Shown: positions 204-60,000 of the stretch, piece after piece
Position numbering within the stretch: the first letter of the stretch is position 1
Layout: each line of letters starts with the position of its first letter
DNA from: Synechococcus sp. JA-2-3B'a(2-13)
GTDB taxonomy: Bacteria; Cyanobacteriota; Cyanobacteriia; Thermostichales; Thermostichaceae
Length of the DNA stretch: 64,000 nucleotides
Reading direction: 5' to 3'
Assembly (NCBI RefSeq): GCF_000013225.1
Contig: NC_007776.1
Coordinates: forward strand, 2,176,501-2,240,500
Position numbers and translations under genes: made by a program
Notes under the pieces: generated by a model
Seen by the model: the letters and a program-made list of their open reading frames with translations, nothing else
Databases searched by the model: none
What the model was told of the DNA's origin: nothing

Positions 204-250
204 GTCGCGAAAGCGGGCCGGAGGCCTTTCGCGGAAGCGGACCGGAGGCC
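204..250 (+). repeat. Dispersed palindromic repeat family A, two tandem copies
   Basis: Two consecutive copies of a motif starting TCGCGNAAGCGG and ending CCGGAGGCC. They align with the family found elsewhere in the window (consensus TTCGCGNNAGCG followed by GGACGGAGTCC), with A-to-C and T-to-G changes. This is the only tandem pair of the family in the window. Confidence 0.5.
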
Positions 251-251
251 T

Positions 252-289
252 TGTTTTTGCATGGGATCCCTGTTTTTGCATGGGATCCC
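252..289. repeat. 19-bp tandem duplication carrying GGGATCCC
   Basis: Two exact adjacent copies of a unit TGTTTTTGCAT followed by GGGATCCC. Each unit carries the abundant genome palindrome at its end. Confidence 0.8.
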
Positions 290-5196: not shown

Positions 5197-5219
5197 ATCG
5201 CGCCAGCGGGACGGAGTCC
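5197..5219 (+). repeat. Dispersed palindromic repeat family A, beside the IS5 insertion
   Basis: Reads TCGCGCCAGCGGG followed by ACGGAGTCC, a near-consensus copy. The IS5-family element begins three bases downstream, so the TA target lies directly at the end of the repeat. Confidence 0.7.
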
Positions 5220-5253
5220 TAGGTCGTGTTGATCTTATGTTAGGATAGAGAGA

Positions 5254-10720: not shown

Positions 10721-12364
10721 CTACCACGCCAGGGCTAGGCCATCGGCACGGGGTTCGGAAGCCGCAATGAAGTGATCCCCATCCCGCAAGAGGATCTGTC
10801 CCCGGCCAAAAAGACCGCAATCCTCTTCTGCGTCCACCACCTGCACTGCATGGCCGCGGGCGGAGAGTTCGCGCACCACCTGGGGCGGCACCGTGCTCTC
10901 CAGCGCCACCTGCGGGATCCCCTGATCCCACAGCACTCGCCAGCGGGGCGCATCCAGAGCCGCCTGGGGGTTCAGGCCGTAATCCACCAAATTCACCACC
11001 ACCTGCACATGGCCTTGGGGCTGCATTGCCCCCCCCATGACACCAAAAGGGCCGAGGGGGATCCCTTCTTTAGATAGAAAGGCGGGGATAATCGTGTGGT
11101 AGGGGCGCTTGCGGGGGCCCACCTGGTTGGGATGGCCGGGCTCCAGGGTGAAACCCGTGCCGCGGTTGTGGAGAGCAATGCCCGTGCCCGGAACCAGCAG
11201 ACCACTGCCGAAGCCATCGAAATTCGACTGAATCAAAGACACCATCAACTCACCATCAGCTGCAGCCAGGTAAACCGTTCCCCCCTCCGGCAGCCCTGGC
11301 TGGGCCAGGGGGATCGCCTCCCTCCCGATCAACTGCCGCCGCCGCTGTGCATAAGCCTTATCCAGCATCTGGGCAGGACTGACCCGCACATACTCCGGAT
11401 CCGCCACCTGTCGGCTCACATCGGCAAAGGCCAGCTTCATTGCCTCAATCTGCAGGTGATAGCGCTCGCCGGCATCGTAGGAGATCCGACCCAGCTCAAA
11501 ACCCTCCAAAAGGTTGAGCGCCATCAAAGCGGCAATGCCCTGCCCGTTGGGGGGGATCTCCCAGACGGTGTAGCCGCGGTAATCCGTATGGATGGGTTCC
11601 ACCCAATCGGCCCGGTGCTCAGCCAAGTCGGCGGGGGACAGGAAGCCGCCCGTGGCCTCCGAGAAAGCCAGCAACTTCTCCGCCAGCTCCCCCCGGTAAA
11701 AACTCTCCCCACCGCTACGGGCAATCTCTTCTAGGGTTTGAGCATGCAGGGGGCTGCTCCAGCGCTCTCCAGCCCGTGGGGCACGCCCTTGGGGAAAGAA
11801 AACGGCCTTGAAGGCCTCGTGGCGCGGATCCGGCAGGGGCAAATAGATGGACTCCGCCGCCTGCCACAGTTGGGCCACCCGGGGAGAGACCGGAAATCCC
11901 TCTTGCGCCAGACGAAGGGCAGGCACAAACAGACGCTCGAACGGCAGCTTTCCCCAGCGCCGGTGCAAGGTCTGCCAAGCGGAAACTGCCCCCGGCACCG
12001 TCACCGCTAACCAATCGTAGGGGGGGATCCGCCCATGGTCCCGGTACCGCTCCGGCGTCAGGGCGGCTGGGCTGCGACCGGAAGCATTCAACCCGTACAG
12101 CTGACCCTCCTCCCCCCCCTCCCACACCAGAGCAAAGGCATCGCCGCCAATGCCATTGGAGGTTGGCTCCACCACCGTCAAAGCCACCGCCATTGCCACG
12201 GCTGCATCCACAGCATTGCCGCCCGCCCAGAACATCTCCATGCCCGCCATTGCCGCCAAAGGTTGGCTGGTGGCCACGGATCCCTGTCTGCCCATCACCA
12301 CCCGTCGCCGCGAAGCAAACGGATAGCGATCCAGGGCCTGCCGCAAAAAAGTGGGTGCTGGCAT
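10721..12364 (-). CDS. ggt: Gamma-glutamyltransferase
   Basis: This family transfers or hydrolyses the gamma-glutamyl group of glutathione and related compounds; it is made as one chain that self-cleaves before a catalytic Thr. The 547-residue protein has GGNAVDAAVAMAVALTVVEP (residues about 40-60), GIGGDAFALVW, the small-subunit start near GGTVYLAAADGELMVSLIQSN, and MGGAMQPQGHVQVVVNLVDYG near the C-terminus. ATG at 12364 fits the family; the open frame extends further upstream to 12586, but that part is antisense-like to the HAD gene. No signal peptide is visible, unlike periplasmic homologues. The start codon directly abuts a family B repeat, leaving no recognisable Shine-Dalgarno. Confidence 0.9.
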   Translation of the reverse strand: MPAPTFLRQALDRYPFASRRRVVMGRQGSVATSQPLAAMAGMEMFWAGGNAVDAAVAMAVALTVVEPTSNGIGGDAFALVWEGGEEGQLYGLNASGRSPAALTPERYRDHGRIPPYDWLAVTVPGAVSAWQTLHRRWGKLPFERLFVPALRLAQEGFPVSPRVAQLWQAAESIYLPLPDPRHEAFKAVFFPQGRAPRAGERWSSPLHAQTLEEIARSGGESFYRGELAEKLLAFSEATGGFLSPADLAEHRADWVEPIHTDYRGYTVWEIPPNGQGIAALMALNLLEGFELGRISYDAGERYHLQIEAMKLAFADVSRQVADPEYVRVSPAQMLDKAYAQRRRQLIGREAIPLAQPGLPEGGTVYLAAADGELMVSLIQSNFDGFGSGLLVPGTGIALHNRGTGFTLEPGHPNQVGPRKRPYHTIIPAFLSKEGIPLGPFGVMGGAMQPQGHVQVVVNLVDYGLNPQAALDAPRWRVLWDQGIPQVALESTVPPQVVRELSARGHAVQVVDAEEDCGLFGRGQILLRDGDHFIAASEPRADGLALAW

Positions 12365-12388
12365 ATCGCTACGCGACGCTCTCGCGAA
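12364..12388. repeat. Family B palindromic repeat at the ggt start codon
   Basis: Reads TATCGCTACGCGACGCTCTC then GCGAA on the plus strand. It lies immediately upstream of the ggt ATG, in the place of its ribosome-binding site. Confidence 0.85.
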
Positions 12389-12401: not shown

Positions 12402-13142
12402 CTACACAGGCAGGTTATCGCTACGCGACGCTCTCGCGAACAGGAGTGTGGCCAACTCCGCAAAGCTGTCCACCACCACATCTGCCCCGGCGTGGCGCAG
12501 TTCCTCGGCGGTGAAAGCCGTGGTGAGGCCCACCGCAAAACAGCCAGCCCCCTTAGCGGCGCGGATCCCATGGGTAGAATCTTCAATCACCCAACACAAC
12601 GCCGGATCCAACCCCACAGCGGCAGCCGTTTTCAGGTAAGGCTCTGGGTCGGGCTTGGCCCGCTGAATGTCTTCGGCGGTAATCACCGCGTCAAACCAGC
12701 GGTGCAGGTCGAAGCGCTGGAAAATCTGCGCTTGATCCCGGCGGATGGCCGAAGTGGTGACGGCCAGGGCAGAAAAGCGCTGGCGGCTGGCCGCCAAAAA
12801 CTCCAGCACCCCCGGCACCAGGGGTACCTCTGCCAGCAGCTCGCCAAAAGCCTTGGCCTTTTCCTCGATCAAGCGCTGCACCAGCAGGGGCCGTTCTGCA
12901 GGTGGGGTGTCCGTCTGGTGTTGGACAAGGTACTCGAACATGTCGCGGTCGGTGCGCCCCTTGAACTGCAGGGAGATGGGGGCCAAATCCAGGGATAGGT
13001 GGCAGCGTTGCAGGGCAATGGCCCCGGCGCGGGCATGGATTGGTTCCGAATCCACAATCACCCCGTCCATATCGAAGAGCAAGCCGGCAGTCACGTCAGC
13101 CTTCCCCTGTTGTAGGCACAGCACTTTGGATTGCATAGACAT
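12402..13142 (-). CDS. HAD-superfamily phosphatase/phosphomutase (beta-phosphoglucomutase-like)
   Basis: A 246-residue HAD hydrolase. Motif I is LLFDMDGVIVDSEP (residues about 20-33, nucleophile Asp). Motif II is in ALAVTTSAIRRDQ. The Lys and the acidic motif are in ITAEDIQRAKPDPEPYL and CWVIEDSTHGIRAAKGAG. The alpha-helical cap places it in the subfamily of beta-phosphoglucomutase, phosphoglycolate phosphatase and sugar-phosphatases; the substrate cannot be told. ATG at 13142 directly abuts a family B repeat, and the last dozen residues (FARASRSDNLPV) are encoded by a second copy. That C-terminus is probably not native. It lies upstream of ggt on the same strand, 37 bp apart. Confidence 0.85.
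   Translation of the reverse strand: MSMQSKVLCLQQGKADVTAGLLFDMDGVIVDSEPIHARAGAIALQRCHLSLDLAPISLQFKGRTDRDMFEYLVQHQTDTPPAERPLLVQRLIEEKAKAFGELLAEVPLVPGVLEFLAASRQRFSALAVTTSAIRRDQAQIFQRFDLHRWFDAVITAEDIQRAKPDPEPYLKTAAAVGLDPALCWVIEDSTHGIRAAKGAGCFAVGLTTAFTAEELRHAGADVVVDSFAELATLLFARASRSDNLPV
12416..12440. repeat. Family B palindromic repeat inside the HAD gene 3' end
   Basis: Identical over 25 bp to the copy at 12364. It is translated on the minus strand as FARASRSD near the C-terminus of the HAD phosphatase. Confidence 0.85.
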
Positions 13143-13167
13143 TATCGCTACGCGACGCTTTCGCGAA
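13143..13167. repeat. Family B palindromic repeat at the HAD start codon
   Basis: Differs by one base (C to T) from the two copies at 12364 and 12416. It lies directly against the HAD gene ATG (13140-13142), in the same position and orientation as the copy at the ggt start. Confidence 0.85.
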
Positions 13168-14109: not shown

Positions 14110-14434
14110 CGCAGCGGATCCCTGTAGGGCAAGTTGCTAAGGCCATTATCGCTTGGAACCGCATCTTAGCGCACCCTGTCTCGGCATCGCTCCCATTTCA
14201 GAATCAAGTTGGCAGGTGAAGACCCACCCATCTTCTGTGGCATCCTCCCGGCGCTCGTCCTGCGGACAGAGCACAGGCTTCCCTTCCCGTCAGCAGGACG
14301 GAGTCCTTACCTCGCGGCTGGGCATTCCTGCCCCCTGCCACTTGCCTGGGTCTACAACCCCCGACAAAACGACTGGACAGGTGGCTTCCCTTCCCCAGCC
14401 TCCCTGGCTACTGCCAGCTCGCAAAACAACCTCT
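14110..14434. other. Gene-free spacer with a family A repeat
   Basis: No gene is supported. The short open frames on both strands are low in conservation signals. It contains a near-consensus family A repeat and continues from the decayed tnpB fragment that follows. Confidence 0.5.
14284..14306 (+). repeat. Dispersed palindromic repeat family A
   Basis: Reads TTCCCGTCAGCAGG followed by ACGGAGTCC. Its left arm resembles the copy inside the NFACT gene (TTCCCGTTAGCGGG). Confidence 0.7.
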
Positions 14435-15082: not shown

Positions 15083-15475
15083 AAGTCGCCTCCATCAACG
15101 AAGGGTTGAGTTTGTTGTTGTTGAACCGTAAGCCACGGAGAGAGTGGCGCGATTCAGTTGAGGCGCGTTCCTTCGGGAAGACCCCTACTTCCGTCTCTGC
15201 ACAGCTCCAGGCCACTGGTGAGCCAACTGCAGAGGTGAACGATTTATCCTATGTCTGTATCATAACTTACGGTTTTGCAGGTTTTTTGGGGGATTTATAG
15301 AAATTTAATCCGGCCATACCCGCAAAAGGGATCCCTTGCCGTCGGCTCTTCCGCGGCTTCTCGGGCCTGACTGGGCAATCACCTATGCACTTTTCGGAAT
15401 AGATTGCCGCAACCGGTTCCGGGCCCAGGGCACCAATCCCGTATTCGGCCAGTCTCCGCAAAATTCTGATTTCTT
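15083..15475. other. Gene-free spacer
   Basis: I see no supportable gene, RNA or repeat in this stretch. It should contain the promoter of the DUF4278 gene (minus strand). A minus-strand frame ending at 15267 has no recognisable features. Confidence 0.4.
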
Positions 15476-16236: not shown

Positions 16237-16308
16237 GCGGGCGTAGTTCAGTGGTAGAACGCTAGCTTCCCAAGCTGGATGTCGTGAGTTCGAGTCTCAT
16301 CGCCCGCT
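16237..16308 (+). tRNA. tRNA-Gly (anticodon CCC)
   Basis: The acceptor stem GCGGGCG pairs with CGCCCGC. The D arm is GTTC/GAAC, the anticodon stem is CTAGC/GCTGG with loop TTCCCAA (anticodon CCC, reading GGG), and the T arm is GTGAG-TTCGAGT-CTCAT. The 3' CCA is not encoded. All stems fold with only one G-T pair. Confidence 0.95.
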
Positions 16309-42581: not shown

Positions 42582-42622
42582 AAACTGGATTGGGACACTC
42601 CCCAAGCGTTCCGCGCTGCTTC
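42582..42622. repeat. Dispersed repeat family C, copy 2
   Basis: AAACTGGATTGGGACACTCC then CCAAGCGTTCCGCGCTGCTT; matches the copy at 24566-24605. Confidence 0.7.
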
Positions 42623-42758
42623 CGCGACCACTCCCAGGGGAAGAGGGAAGTTAGGAAGCGATGCAACTTAAAGCTGTTCGTCAGCTAGAAATCGCAGGAG
42701 CCCCGCACTGTACCCGTAGGGTCAGTGTCGGGAGGAATGCGGAAGTTATGATAGAACC

Positions 42759-45878: not shown

Positions 45879-45902
45879 GTTCCCGTTAGCAGGATGGAGC
45901 CC
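45879..45902 (+). repeat. Dispersed palindromic repeat family A
   Basis: GTTCCCGTTAGCAGG then ATGGAGCCC in the spacer before the aminotransferase gene. The left arm is identical to that of the NFACT copy. Confidence 0.6.
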
Positions 45903-45977
45903 CTTTCAAAATTATCCAATATCCAGGGATTCCATCTTCGCCAGCTTGAAATCTCGTCTACTGCCGGAGGGCCAGCC

Positions 45978-54603: not shown

Positions 54604-54868
54604 GCGGTCAACCCCTTCTGTTCTGCCGAGTTGGATACTCCTGCCCAGCCAGTCGCCTCGGCGGTGCGGAGCACCATAGGGATAGAGGTGGTGAAACTAC
54701 CCGGTAAAACTTGCCCAGAGTTTTTCACCAGCCACTCCAGACCCGTCTCAACATCTGTCGGGGGCGTCGGATCTGCGGGCCAAGGGTCAGAATAAGCCAG
54801 CCTCAGACCAGCCGCCTGAGCATTGCGTAGCGAAGGAGCATGACTCTAGTCAATAATAAGCTCAACTA

Positions 54869-54898: not shown

Positions 54899-55017
54899 CG
54901 GATTACTACCAGTTGATCTTTCTGTTTACTTTCGAGTCTGCCAACATGGTAGCCAAAGCAAAGCAGAAAATTGGTAGTAAGACGACACGGAAACTGCGCT
55001 TTGGGTATTCTACTCAA

Positions 55018-55096
55018 AGCTTTGCGGGATACCGCCATTCTGTTTGGACTCCGTCCCGCTAACGCGAATGGAAACAAACAGAATGCTATCGCTGCA
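55018..55096. repeat. Hairpin repeat family D, copy 2, with a family A insert
   Basis: AGCTTTGCGGGATACCGCCA then TTCTGTTTGG matches 42479-42508. ATTCTGTTTG (55037-55046) pairs exactly with CAAACAGAAT (55075-55084), and a family A repeat lies in the loop. Confidence 0.75.
55046..55070 (-). repeat. Dispersed palindromic repeat family A (near-consensus)
   Basis: The minus strand reads ATTCGCGTTAGCGGGACGG then AGTCC, the best match to the family consensus. It forms the loop of the family D hairpin. Confidence 0.8.
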
Positions 55097-55149
55097 TAGT
55101 TGAACAGTGATGTTCAGCAGTGTTCAGCGTAAATGTATCAGCAACAGGG

Positions 55150-56979
55150 ATGCAGCCCGTTGATCTGACCACCCTGCGCGCTGTGCTGGCAGATCTAGCC
55201 CAGGCTAAGACAGGTCGGGATCTAGTGTTGCCTGCCCGCGTGGAATGGATCCAACAGACCGATCTGTGGACGGTGGTCATTGGCTTGCGCACCCTCACTG
55301 CCCGTCCCTGCCTGCTGTTGTGCTGGCACCCTCAGGCGGCCCGTCTCCACCTCTGTCAGCCTCCTCCCAAAGAGCCGGATGGCTTTCAATTTAGCCAGTT
55401 CCTCCAACGGCACCTGAAGGGTTTGGCTCTGACGGAGCTGGCTCTGCTGGAGGATTGGGAACGGGTGATTGACTTGCGCTTTGCCCCTCGGCCCGGGGAT
55501 CCCCCTTATCGCCATCTCTACCTGGAGGTGATGGGCAAGCACAGCAATGCCATTTTGGTGGACGAGGCGGGCATGATCTTGGCCAGTGGCCATGGGGTAA
55601 GCGAGCGCCAATCGCGAATCCGTCCAGTGCAGCCGGGCCTGCCCTACGAGGCTCCTCCGGCCCTAACCGACCCGATCCCGCAGCGATCCGAGCCCTTCTC
55701 CTGCTGGCAAGAGCGCGTTGCCCTGATCCCCGGCCCCATCGGCCAACGGCTGTTGCGCTGTTATCGCGGCCTCAGTCGGCACTTGGTGGAAGCGATGTGC
55801 CATCAGGCTGGGATCCCGCCGCAAACCTCCACCGATCACCTCTCTGCCCGCGATTGGCAGGCACTGTTTGCCAGGTGGCAAGACTGGTTAACCCGTCTGG
55901 AAACAGGCCAGTTTGACCCAGCTCCCACTCCCCAGGGATACACCGTTCTCGGCTGGGCAAGCGGTGCCGTTCCCGTTAGCGGGACGGAGTCCCTGCAACA
56001 ACCTTCTCGACTCAATCTGCACCAACTTCTGGAAGGCTACTACCAGGCTCAGCTTAACCGCGAACAGTTTGAGCGAGAGCGCCACCGTCTGCTGCAAAGG
56101 GTATCCACCCTGCTGAAAAAGCTCTATCAGCGGCGAGAGCAATTTGAGGCAATGCTGGCCGACTCCACCCAGGCGGAAGCCTCCAAGCAGGCTGCCGACT
56201 TGTTGATGGCCCACCTCCACCTCTGGCGGCCAGGGTTGCATCACATCGAGCTGCCGGATTTTGCCAGCGGCCAGACGGTCAAGATCCCTCTCGACCCCGA
56301 AAAAAATGCCATTCTCAATGCCCAAGCCTACTACCGCAAGCACCGCAAACAAAAACGGGCCCAGGATGCTATCCGGCCCCTACAAGAGGCGCTTGGCCAA
56401 GAGATCCTCTACCTCGAGCAGGTGGAAGCGTCTCTACAGCAGCTGGAAACCTATCGGGATCCCCAAGACTTGACCACCCTCAAGGAAATTGAGACCGAGC
56501 TGATTGAACAGCGCTACTTGGAGAGTCCCACTCGCAACAGCGGGACAGAGTCTCTGCGGGCGAGCTCAAAACATGCCTCACCGGCAACCTTCAACCCCCA
56601 CCGCTTTACCAGCCCCAGTGGCTTCTCCATTTGGGTGGGGCGCAACAACCTGCAAAATGATCAGCTCACCTTTCGCGTGGCTCAGGAACACGATTGGTGG
56701 TTTCATGCCCAAGAGATCCCCGGCAGTCATGTGCTGCTGCGCTTGCCCCCCGGGGCTGTAGCAGAAAGCGAAGATCTGCAGGCGGCTGCTGATTTGGCGG
56801 CCCATTTCAGCCGCGGTCGCCTCAGCGAACAGGTGCCGGTAGTCTACACTCGCCCGAAACTGGTGTTCAAACCCAAGGGATCCCCGCCCGGCATGGTCGT
56901 TTACAAACAGGAGCAGGTGCTTTGGGGGCGGCCCAGCCATGCGCAGCTGCTCATTGCGTCAGCCCTTGGGCCACACTGA
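55150..56979 (+). CDS. NFACT-family ribosome quality control protein (Rqc2/RqcH homologue)
   Basis: A 609-residue protein. The NFACT-N domain starts MQPVDLTTLRAVLADLAQ, with YLEVMGKHSNAILVDEAGMI. A coiled-coil region follows (about residues 310-400). The C-terminal NFACT-R domain FTSPSGFSIWVGRNNLQNDQ, RVAQEHDWWFHAQEIPGSHV and LRLPPGAVAESEDLQ is typical. Bacterial RqcH adds Ala tails to stalled nascent chains on 50S subunits; related proteins were first named fibronectin-binding. Two family A repeats are translated in the same frame (AVPVSGTESLQQ and PTRNSGTESLRA). The start ATG 55150 is favoured; a GTG at 55120 is also in frame. Confidence 0.9.
   Translation: MQPVDLTTLRAVLADLAQAKTGRDLVLPARVEWIQQTDLWTVVIGLRTLTARPCLLLCWHPQAARLHLCQPPPKEPDGFQFSQFLQRHLKGLALTELALLEDWERVIDLRFAPRPGDPPYRHLYLEVMGKHSNAILVDEAGMILASGHGVSERQSRIRPVQPGLPYEAPPALTDPIPQRSEPFSCWQERVALIPGPIGQRLLRCYRGLSRHLVEAMCHQAGIPPQTSTDHLSARDWQALFARWQDWLTRLETGQFDPAPTPQGYTVLGWASGAVPVSGTESLQQPSRLNLHQLLEGYYQAQLNREQFERERHRLLQRVSTLLKKLYQRREQFEAMLADSTQAEASKQAADLLMAHLHLWRPGLHHIELPDFASGQTVKIPLDPEKNAILNAQAYYRKHRKQKRAQDAIRPLQEALGQEILYLEQVEASLQQLETYRDPQDLTTLKEIETELIEQRYLESPTRNSGTESLRASSKHASPATFNPHRFTSPSGFSIWVGRNNLQNDQLTFRVAQEHDWWFHAQEIPGSHVLLRLPPGAVAESEDLQAAADLAAHFSRGRLSEQVPVVYTRPKLVFKPKGSPPGMVVYKQEQVLWGRPSHAQLLIASALGPH
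55968..55992 (+). repeat. Family A repeat inside the NFACT gene, copy 1
   Basis: CGTTCCCGTTAGCGGG then ACGGAGTCC, read in frame as VPVSGTES. CGTTCCCG and CGGGACG can pair as a hairpin. Confidence 0.85.
56531..56553 (+). repeat. Family A repeat inside the NFACT gene, copy 2
   Basis: CTCGCAACAGCGGG then ACAGAGTCT, read in frame as RNSGTES, the same SGTES peptide as copy 1. It lies in the linker before the NFACT-R domain. Confidence 0.7.
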
Positions 56980-57026: not shown

Positions 57027-60000
57027 TCAAGGGAGAACTTCGAGGGAGTAAGCGGCGCTGCGGCCATGGCGGCTGGGATCGTACATTTCTTCGGCCAAGG
57101 CAGGAGCCACCTGGAATTGGCCGGGGATCTCCGGACGGAAGAGATAGACAAACTCATGGCGACCCTGCTTGAGCTCGGTGCTGAAAAAGGCCACGCGGTC
57201 ATCCCGATTCTCTTGGCGGGTCCAAAACCAGTCCCACCAGTAGTCTGGGGCCAAGCCGGTGAACTCTCGCGGATCCTGGGAGGTGATCTCGGCGCCGCTG
57301 GGCAGGGGATCCTCGACCACCACGTAGTGGCTGTCCCGCTCGGCTTCCACCGTCAACCGGGCCAGGAGGATTTCTCCGGCCCTTACTGTGTCGCCAGGGC
57401 GCAGCGGCTGCTCTCGGTAGCGGATCTCCCCGTTGGGTTGGGGCTGGGGCTGTAGGCGGAAGTAGCTGCGGCTCACCGCAAAGCCTTGGGCTTGAGAGGG
57501 CAGAGGGTTGGGGACGAAGGCTTCTCCCCTCAAGCTGTAGTAAAGGGGGCCGGGGCCGGACTTTTCCAGGCGCAGGCTGCTCAGGTTCCCCACTTCTGCG
57601 TCAGCCCAATCCAGCCCATAGCGGGGATCCCCAGCGCCGGCCTGCCAGCGATCAAGAAGGGATCCGGTTGTCCCATCCAACACCCGCACCTCGCCGGGGC
57701 CGGGAAGCTGCTGCTGCTGGGCTTGGTAGTAGGCGGACAGGCCGAGGAGAGCATCGGCGGTGGCTTTGGTGGTGCGCCAGCGGTTGTTTTGCCGCTGCTG
57801 GAGAAGGGCCTCGGCAATCTGGGCAGCCCGGTCATCCTGCAGCCGAACGGCCAATTGCAAAAGCGGGCCGGCCACCTCCATGTCGTCGTAGGTGGAGCGC
57901 TCGTGGGTTGCCAAGGAAGAGGCAGCCGGGATAAACCAGCGCCCTTGGGGATCCTGTTGCCGCCGCTCCAGAACCTCATCCAGGGCTGCCTGGGCAAGAT
58001 CCCTCTGGCCCAGTTGCAGGGCGGCCAGCCCTCGGTAGGCCAGGCCAAAGGTGGAGAGCCGCTCCGGCGGCGGCAGGTCGGCAGTCACCAAAGCGGGATC
58101 CCAGAGGGCCAGGCTGTAGGCGACAAAAGCCTGCAGATCCGGGGAGAGGGCTTGTGGCTGGGCCAGTTGAGCGGCCAGATAGTCCAAGGCCTGCCGCACC
58201 TGCCAATCTTTGAGGGCATAGCCGGCGGCTTGGGCAAGATGATATCCCTGCAGGATGTATCCGGTCAGATAGGGGTTGCTCCGGTCATGGGCCCACCAGC
58301 CCCAGCCCCCATCGTAGTTCTGGGATCCCTCCAGTCGCTGCAAGCCCGATCGAAGCACCTGGGGCAGCCGCTCCAGGGTTTGCGAGCGCAGGTTCAAGCC
58401 CAACTGCTTGCTGACTTGGGCGACGGCTAGGGCGGGCAAGAAGCGACTCAGGGTTTGCTCGGTGCAGCCGTAGGGGAACTCCACCAGGTAATCCAGCGGC
58501 TCCAGCAGGGTTGCTGCCGGGCTAGCGGCCAGTTCCAGGTGAAGCTGCCGGGATCCCGGCACCCAGGTGGCGGGCCAATCCAGCGATAAGTCAAGGCTGC
58601 CCTCCTGCACCCGACCCACCTGGGAGAACCGTTGCACAGCGCCGAAAGGCTGGCTGGGGATCCGCAGTTGCAACGCATCTTTCAGCCCATTCCCTTCCGC
58701 CCAGACCCGCAGAGAGGTATCTCCGGCCCCCAGAACCTGGAGAGGCCATTCCACCCGCCCCGCTCCTTGGGCCGGCACGGTGAGGCGTTGTCGTTCCGGG
58801 CCTTGCAATTTCAAGATCCCACCGGCAGGAACAGGAACTTCCAGCCGCACCTCCACCGCTTGGGCTTGACCCGTGCGGTTTTGCACAATGGCCGCCAAGG
58901 TGAGCTGATCCCCCACCCGGAAAAAGCGGGGAGCGGCCAAGCGCACCAACAGGTCTTTGCTAACCGAGACTGTGGCAAGAGCGGATCCCACCTGGGTGTC
59001 GGCAGTGGCGGCGCGGGCGGTCAAGCGCCAGGTGGTGAGGTTGTCGGGCCAGCGCACCTGCACCTGAGCCAGGCCATCGGCATTGGTGACCAGATCCGGG
59101 AACCAGGCGGCGGTATCGCGAAAGTCTTCCCGCACTTGGCCGGCCAGCTTGTCAGCACCGCCGGGATATTGCTGAGGGAAAGAGGTAGTGGTGGTAACTT
59201 GGTTGTACTGGCGCCCATAGAAGAAGCGGCGAATATCCGGGGTGAAGTCGGGTCGCAATAGGTAGAGGGCATTGTCCACAATCCCTAGGCCCACCTCGGC
59301 GCTCACCGGCTGCCCTTGGGCATCGCGGGTGCGGATTTGGATTTGGGCGGTCTCGCCCGGTCGATAGGTGGGTTTATCGGTTTGCAGCTCCACCTGCAAA
59401 AAGCGATCCAAGGGGGAGACCCGCAGCAGGGCCTCGCTTCGGTACAGCCGCCGCTCTGGGCCGATGGCAGTGGCAGTGACGTAGAGATTGGGACGATAGT
59501 CGCCGCGGATGGGCAGCCGCAGCGTGGCCGTATGCCCCTGGAGACGCAGCACCTGCACCTGGTGCAGCCGGGATCCCTCAATGCCCACCAGCACCGCCAC
59601 ATCCGGCAGCGGCGAGACTATCAGGATCTGGGCCTCTTCCCCCACCTGGTAGATCTGCCGATCCGCCACCACTTCCAGGCTGGGCAGGGATCCCCAACTT
59701 TGTAGGGGGCTGCCCGGCTCCACCACCCAGAGATAGTCCACCTCCTGCACCCGTTCGCGCCAGCGGTGCGGAGCACTTTGACGGCGGGGATCCCATGCCG
59801 TCAACCGCACCCGGTAGTCTCCCGGCTCCAGGTCGGCGGGCAGGTGGAGGTCGAGGCTGCCTTCCCCGTTGACAATCTGAAAAGGCTGCCGCAGCAGGGT
59901 ACCTTGCCGTTGGTAGGTGTTGCTCTTGGGATCCCAGCGCCAGCGCTCCAGGCTCAGCTCTCCGGTGGCGCTGACGGGGCGGCCATCGTAATCGCGGGCT

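Follow-up and report, generated by a model that had tools for sequence, protein, structure and literature searches.

The NFACT/Rqc2 (RqcH-like) gene at 55120–56979 on the plus strand of the window, as we call the whole 64,000-nt stretch of DNA analysed here, raises the question of how one protein gene came to hold the same short palindromic repeat twice. The gene was recognized from the ORF list, from Pfam matches to NFACT_N (E = 8e-127) and NFACT-R (E = 5e-12), and from solved RqcH homologues (E 1e-55), whose alignment with the ORF has gaps at both insertion places. The initial annotation had described two repeat copies, both translated as SGTES in the same frame, and the sequence and the ORF list bear this out. 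Copy 1, at 55971–55994 (plus strand; TCCCGTTAGCGGGACGGAGTCCCT), belongs to the GGAC subfamily described below; it matched a covariance model at 55970–55995 with 32.2 bits, follows the left target bases CCGT (55967–55970) and is translated V-P-V-S-G-T-E-S. Copy 2, at 56532–56555 (plus strand; TCGCAACAGCGGGACAGAGTCTCT), is of the same subfamily with one stem base changed (covariance-model match, 15.8 bits), follows CCAC (56528–56531) and is translated R-N-S-G-T-E-S-L.

To what extent are these peptides foreign to the protein? It had been suggested that they sit between the NFACT domains and stem from palindromic mobile repeats inserted in frame, and this is supported by a protein and codon alignment of NFACT from six congeners and 24 other cyanobacteria, in which orthologues lack them. 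At site 2, G003, G005 and G002 are shorter by exactly eight codons than both the source genome (G000; a single contig of 3,046,682 bp) and the nearest relative compared (G004; the MAG Synechococcus sp. M44_DOE_062). Site 1 is a length-variable linker at which outgroups are 9–12 residues shorter; copy 1 is also present in G004, there with a 12-nt in-frame deletion. A third NFACT site carries an exact 24-bp insertion private to G004, which again encodes SGTES and converts LETYRDP to LDTCRASGTESFRDP. We looked in the same alignment for an orthologue that has the peptide without the DNA repeat and found none; a native, non-inserted SGTES peptide is ruled out by this comparison. In an AlphaFold2 model of the protein, the two longest low-confidence stretches (residues 271–284 and 460–478) each hold one insertion, SGTES being residues 275–279 in copy 1 and 462–466 in copy 2, which suggests that the NFACT insertions fall in flexible linkers.

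We hold with good confidence that the repeats encoding SGTES belong to a mobile DNA element of very small size, a judgement that covers the explanation proposed here as a whole. The flanks of copies in stretches of G000 and G004, when tabulated, revealed the 12-nt core as one form of a more general unit. This unit comprises 24 nt: a T, a first hairpin CGC-GNNA-GCG, a second hairpin NNNC-GKA-GNNN and about two further bases; the consensus starts with TCGCG and ends with CTT. At least seven subfamilies are distinguished by stem 2 (GGAC, GTGC, TTGC, GCGC, GGCC, TCGC and TGCC), of which TGCC also alters stem 1 from CGC/GCG to CCC/GGG. Their proportions are biased, because GGAC copies guided the choice of the sequence stretches analysed (about 41% of G000 and 27% of G004). 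An apparent class with a 2-nt loop turned out to be an alternative pairing of copies with a GCCA loop.

Compensatory changes preserve the stems in at least seven subfamilies. In a selected alignment, 98.1% of the pair cells were standard, compared with 73.8% upon shuffling, and covariation was 0.598 versus 0.153; because this alignment had been chosen for a paired stem 2, the unbiased tests of the structure are three counts. When the letters CG-NN-AGCG-NNN-CG-N-AG were fixed and the six stem-2 N positions left free, the arms were fully complementary in 203 of 237 matches in G000 and in 157 of 191 in G004. When both stems were free (NNN-GNNA-NNN-NNNC-GKA-GNNN), 187 fully paired matches were found in G000 and 153 in G004, compared with 0 and 0 in the reversed control. 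Finally, the number of distinct fully complementary arms was 10 versus 3.05 expected, and only 8 of 10,000 shuffles scored as high.

Across G000, each strand holds 99 exact copies of the 12-nt core (198 in total; 1 and 1 in the reversed control), and 342 copies lie within three mismatches of the 23-mer by which the family was initially defined (reversed control, 0). Exact matches to the fixed positions of the superfamily number at least 333 in G000 (0 with the reversed pattern) and 302 in G004. Four other congeners have 91, 24, 43 and 117 fixed-letter matches with controls near zero, two family relatives have 3–4, and each other cyanobacterium has ≤ 4; stray hits aside, only one genus carries the superfamily. 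No match was found when public plasmids were searched for the GGAC repeat (family A), nor when viral contigs were searched as phage carriers, and a literature search for the core sequence returned no relevant mention.

The window itself contains five matches to the family with ≤ 3 mismatches, versus 0.00 expected. Both sequence match and covariance model detected GGAC copies at 5197–5222 (plus), at 14284–14309 (plus; a TCCCG variant) and at 55043–55068 (minus), the last within a larger dispersed repeat (∼54930–55110) just upstream of NFACT that occupies the same place in G001 and is found elsewhere in G000. They also detected a degenerate GGAC copy at 45880–45905 (plus). A hairpin had been reported inside the aminotransferase gene, which we cannot uphold: this copy sits just 5′ of the likely start, outside the conserved protein. 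The covariance model further revealed two tandem GGCC-type copies with a 24-bp period at 204–252 (plus), TCGC copies at 12363–12388, 12415–12440 and 13142–13167 (all minus), a superfamily copy with a GCGC stem at 42603–42628 (minus; 27.5 bits) and a GTGC copy with an altered first loop at 54652–54677 (plus). Another GTGC copy, at 59754–59779 (plus; 38.9 bits), lies within an alpha-2-macroglobulin-like gene on the other strand, whose frame is kept; this coding copy is common to G000 and G004. Rfam 15, run on the window at the gathering score, left the element unmatched and found only a tRNA (16237–16308) and a glutamine riboswitch, the glnA leader at 15162–15243 on the minus strand.

To determine whether copies are filled sites that are empty elsewhere, we took those with both flanks matching between G000 and G004 at ≥ 80% identity and measured the distance between the flanks. 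Two classes dominate, a distance of 28 where both genomes have the copy and of 4 where it is absent. With repeated flanks removed, 33 independent sites differ by exactly +24 bp, a set that refers to the G000/G004 pair, the polarity of insertion versus deletion having been checked by outgroups at the NFACT sites only. These events involve six subfamilies (GGAC, GCGC, GGCC, GTGC, TCGC and TTGC), and G004 has many private insertions. The empty target is CYG^A (C, 70%; C or T, 91%; G, 67%; A, 91%), and its first three bases are usually unchanged at filled sites. Among 30 sites, the target A was left of the element in 5, right of it in 7, on both sides in none and on neither in 18. As the A is never on both sides and is often lost, the target is not duplicated, and the junction falls short of a fully clean insertion; such a loss is explained neither by target-site duplication nor by clean insertion of the IS200/IS605 type.

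How does such an element treat genes? Coding DNA was called by an excess of third-codon-position changes between G000 and G004 plus an open frame, a procedure that is blind to short or very conserved genes. Recent insertion follows the distribution of target sites over coding and non-coding DNA: 23 of the 33 recent insertions (∼70%) are in coding DNA, compared with 209 of 277 random CYGA sites (75%; p = 0.52). Among the shared, older insertions the coding fraction is 19/38 (50%; p = 0.002), and this smaller share of genic copies, which is shown in part, fits slow removal by selection. All six frames are used, copies also lie outside genes, and none of the 42 coding copies has an internal stop. 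It is the length of 24 bases, and not the choice of one frame, that preserves the reading frame: 24 is divisible by three, and with the element open in most frames, eight residues are added and the gene is not broken. Selection for the SGTES frame was considered, as 19 of 42 coding copies use it compared with 1/6 by chance, and rejected: the raw excess mostly vanishes against the 30% predicted from the codon phase of the target motif, which leaves a weak excess (p = 0.03). Read most simply, these data mean that the element is blind to genes on insertion, does little harm at 24 nt and is slowly lost from genes.

Copies are also found within other mobile DNA. Three TnpB (IS605 OrfB-type) genes of G000, in the stretches G000:C1:2803000–2808500, 2366000–2370500 and 841000–845000, hold in-frame tandem arrays of GGCC-subfamily 24-mers directly after the RuvC-III motif CGYENNAD; the arrays read (RGSGPEAF) 14, 6 and 4 times, followed by LVGAINILARGI, and their length varies between copies of the insertion sequence. 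A multi-copy element of G000 (in stretches at 84530, 618206, 1264597, 1347935, 1519232, 2816495 and 3006126) carries one 24-mer with the loop GTA, and a related G004 element with 73–77% identical flanks has none, from which it follows that the 24-mer hitch-hiked on a larger repeat.

Could the repeats be immobile, either ancestral or produced by slippage in place or by convergence of sequences that encode SGTES? In favour of this, tandem arrays of the 24-bp unit grow and shrink. However, the 33 dispersed, unrelated sites that are empty in the close relative, with a difference of exactly 24 bp, and the presence of copies outside genes and in every reading frame, make such an origin very improbable. 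A Rickettsia-type palindromic element in the strict sense, or a REP tagged with GTAG or CGTC, is barely credible, too: palindromic structure, high copy number and occurrence in coding sequence would suit either, but size, tag and architecture do not match, and genes are not depleted of copies at insertion. What, then, might move the 24-nt element? The element itself would be gene-free and moved in trans, and the folded two-hairpin single strand may be what the machinery recognizes. The strand could be DNA, handled by a Y1/HUH-like nuclease of the IS200/IS605 kind or by a host enzyme, or it could be RNA.

An RNA intermediate would mean that an RNA of 24 nt with two hairpins enters YG^A sites by reverse transcription or reverse splicing. 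The conserved fold, the tetraloop- and triloop-like loops and the compensatory stems would all suit an RNA, and Elhai reportedly proposed an RNA route in 2008 for the small dispersed repeats (SDRs) of Nostoc, which we count in its favour. Against this, a search for the RVT_1 domain in the six carrier genomes (95–100% complete) found none, while the same search was positive in other cyanobacteria. We consider the RNA route unlikely, and the single-strand DNA route would be the likelier one because RVT_1 was found in no carrier genome. For the DNA route, the Y1/HUH-like enzyme is the leading, albeit unproven, candidate: as in non-autonomous IS200/IS605-type ends, a Y1 (HUH) transposase acting in trans would cut next to CYGA on the left and CCTT at the right end of the element and paste the folded strand. 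The tetranucleotide target, the hairpins and the lack of target duplication all agree with this, and Y1 transposase genes are present in all six carriers, with a GCGC copy beside an intact Y1/TnpB locus. Yet the ends of two Y1 elements, when aligned, showed no likeness to the 24-mer or to CYGA, and their flanks differ too; in two carriers (G003 and G004) every Y1 gene is a fragment or interrupted by stops, although G004 has many private insertions; and the target A is usually replaced. This form of the DNA route is possible but, on balance, doubtful. Local Y1 insertion-sequence ends were rejected as the source of the element on the same mismatch of ends. The only intact Y1 gene of G000 (G000:C1:544340–544702) adjoins a TnpB start, and GCGC-subfamily copies lie nearby. 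Orientation bias relative to the replication strand, examined as a sign of single-strand insertion, gave no clear pattern, and the GC skew was not usable.

More tentatively, these repeats may form a minimal mobile DNA lineage, in which the length of 24 nt (a 23-nt relative plus one loop base) and six nearly open frames may make genic insertion almost cost-free, which would move as a folded single strand by an enzyme independent of reverse transcriptase and may serve as a natural generator of eight-residue insertions across the proteome. The unit is among the smallest mobile DNA units for which filled and empty sites, a target rule and a covarying structure have been shown together. With genic insertion close to the expectation from target sites and the frame always kept, it offers a clean natural system for the study of how proteins tolerate and use random peptide insertions, and of how 24 bases can be mobile. 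Likewise, the apparent absence of reverse transcriptase from all carriers makes the question of the transposition route testable in a small genome.

Which known systems does the element resemble? Rickettsia palindromic elements, to which the initial annotation had likened it, are about 150 bp long, have a conserved peptide reading frame and insert in frame into unrelated protein genes (PMC10969869). The likeness holds for behaviour, as here too unrelated protein genes gain a peptide in frame (42 of 42 coding copies are open), but not for membership, which we reject on size (24 versus about 150 bp) and frame use: the present unit has two hairpins and a fixed CYG^A target, uses six frames and belongs to another phylum. 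REPs are palindromic repeats of 20–40 nt, some of them inside ORFs, with an unpaired terminal GTAG or CGTC as tag (PMC3733652). The element shares with REP/REPIN sequences and their RAYTs the small palindromic form and the presence of some copies in ORFs; unlike them, it has no RAYT clearly linked to it here and is not depleted from genes at insertion, and membership among tagged REPs is rejected since the consensus has no unpaired GTAG/CGTC end. Miniature elements derived from IS200/IS605 are similar in their tetranucleotide target, hairpins and lack of target duplication, but the present unit is far smaller and matching ends are lacking among the Y1 elements examined.

The closest counterparts are the SDRs of Nostoc and relatives, which, as reportedly described by Elhai and colleagues in 2008, are 21–27 nt long, dispersed, mobile without genes, nested or in tandem, and share a fold with compensatory changes; the present family agrees in each of these traits. 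SDR5 enters HIP1 between its third and fourth nucleotides, GCG^ATCGC (PMC4390886). This insertion point after the third base, G^A, matches CYG^A here, whereas the target is CYGA rather than HIP1, GCGA occurring in 2 of 33 sites. On Nostocales plasmids we found CGC-GNA-GCG or GGC-GNA-GCC followed by TCTC/TCCC/TGCC/TGTC-GNA hairpins, typically preceded by TT; the second hairpin covaries (TNNC-GTA-GNNA) and was seen in Nostoc and Trichormus plasmids. These plasmid repeats are very probably the SDR group of Elhai and colleagues. We file the present family as a variant within the SDR kind, its nearest known relative. It differs from the Nostocales repeats in its first loop, which has 4 nt here and 3 nt there, hence the 24-nt unit, and it is set apart from them and from the SDRs by its occurrence in another genus, by many genic copies in every frame and by a different set of covarying stem-2 sequences.
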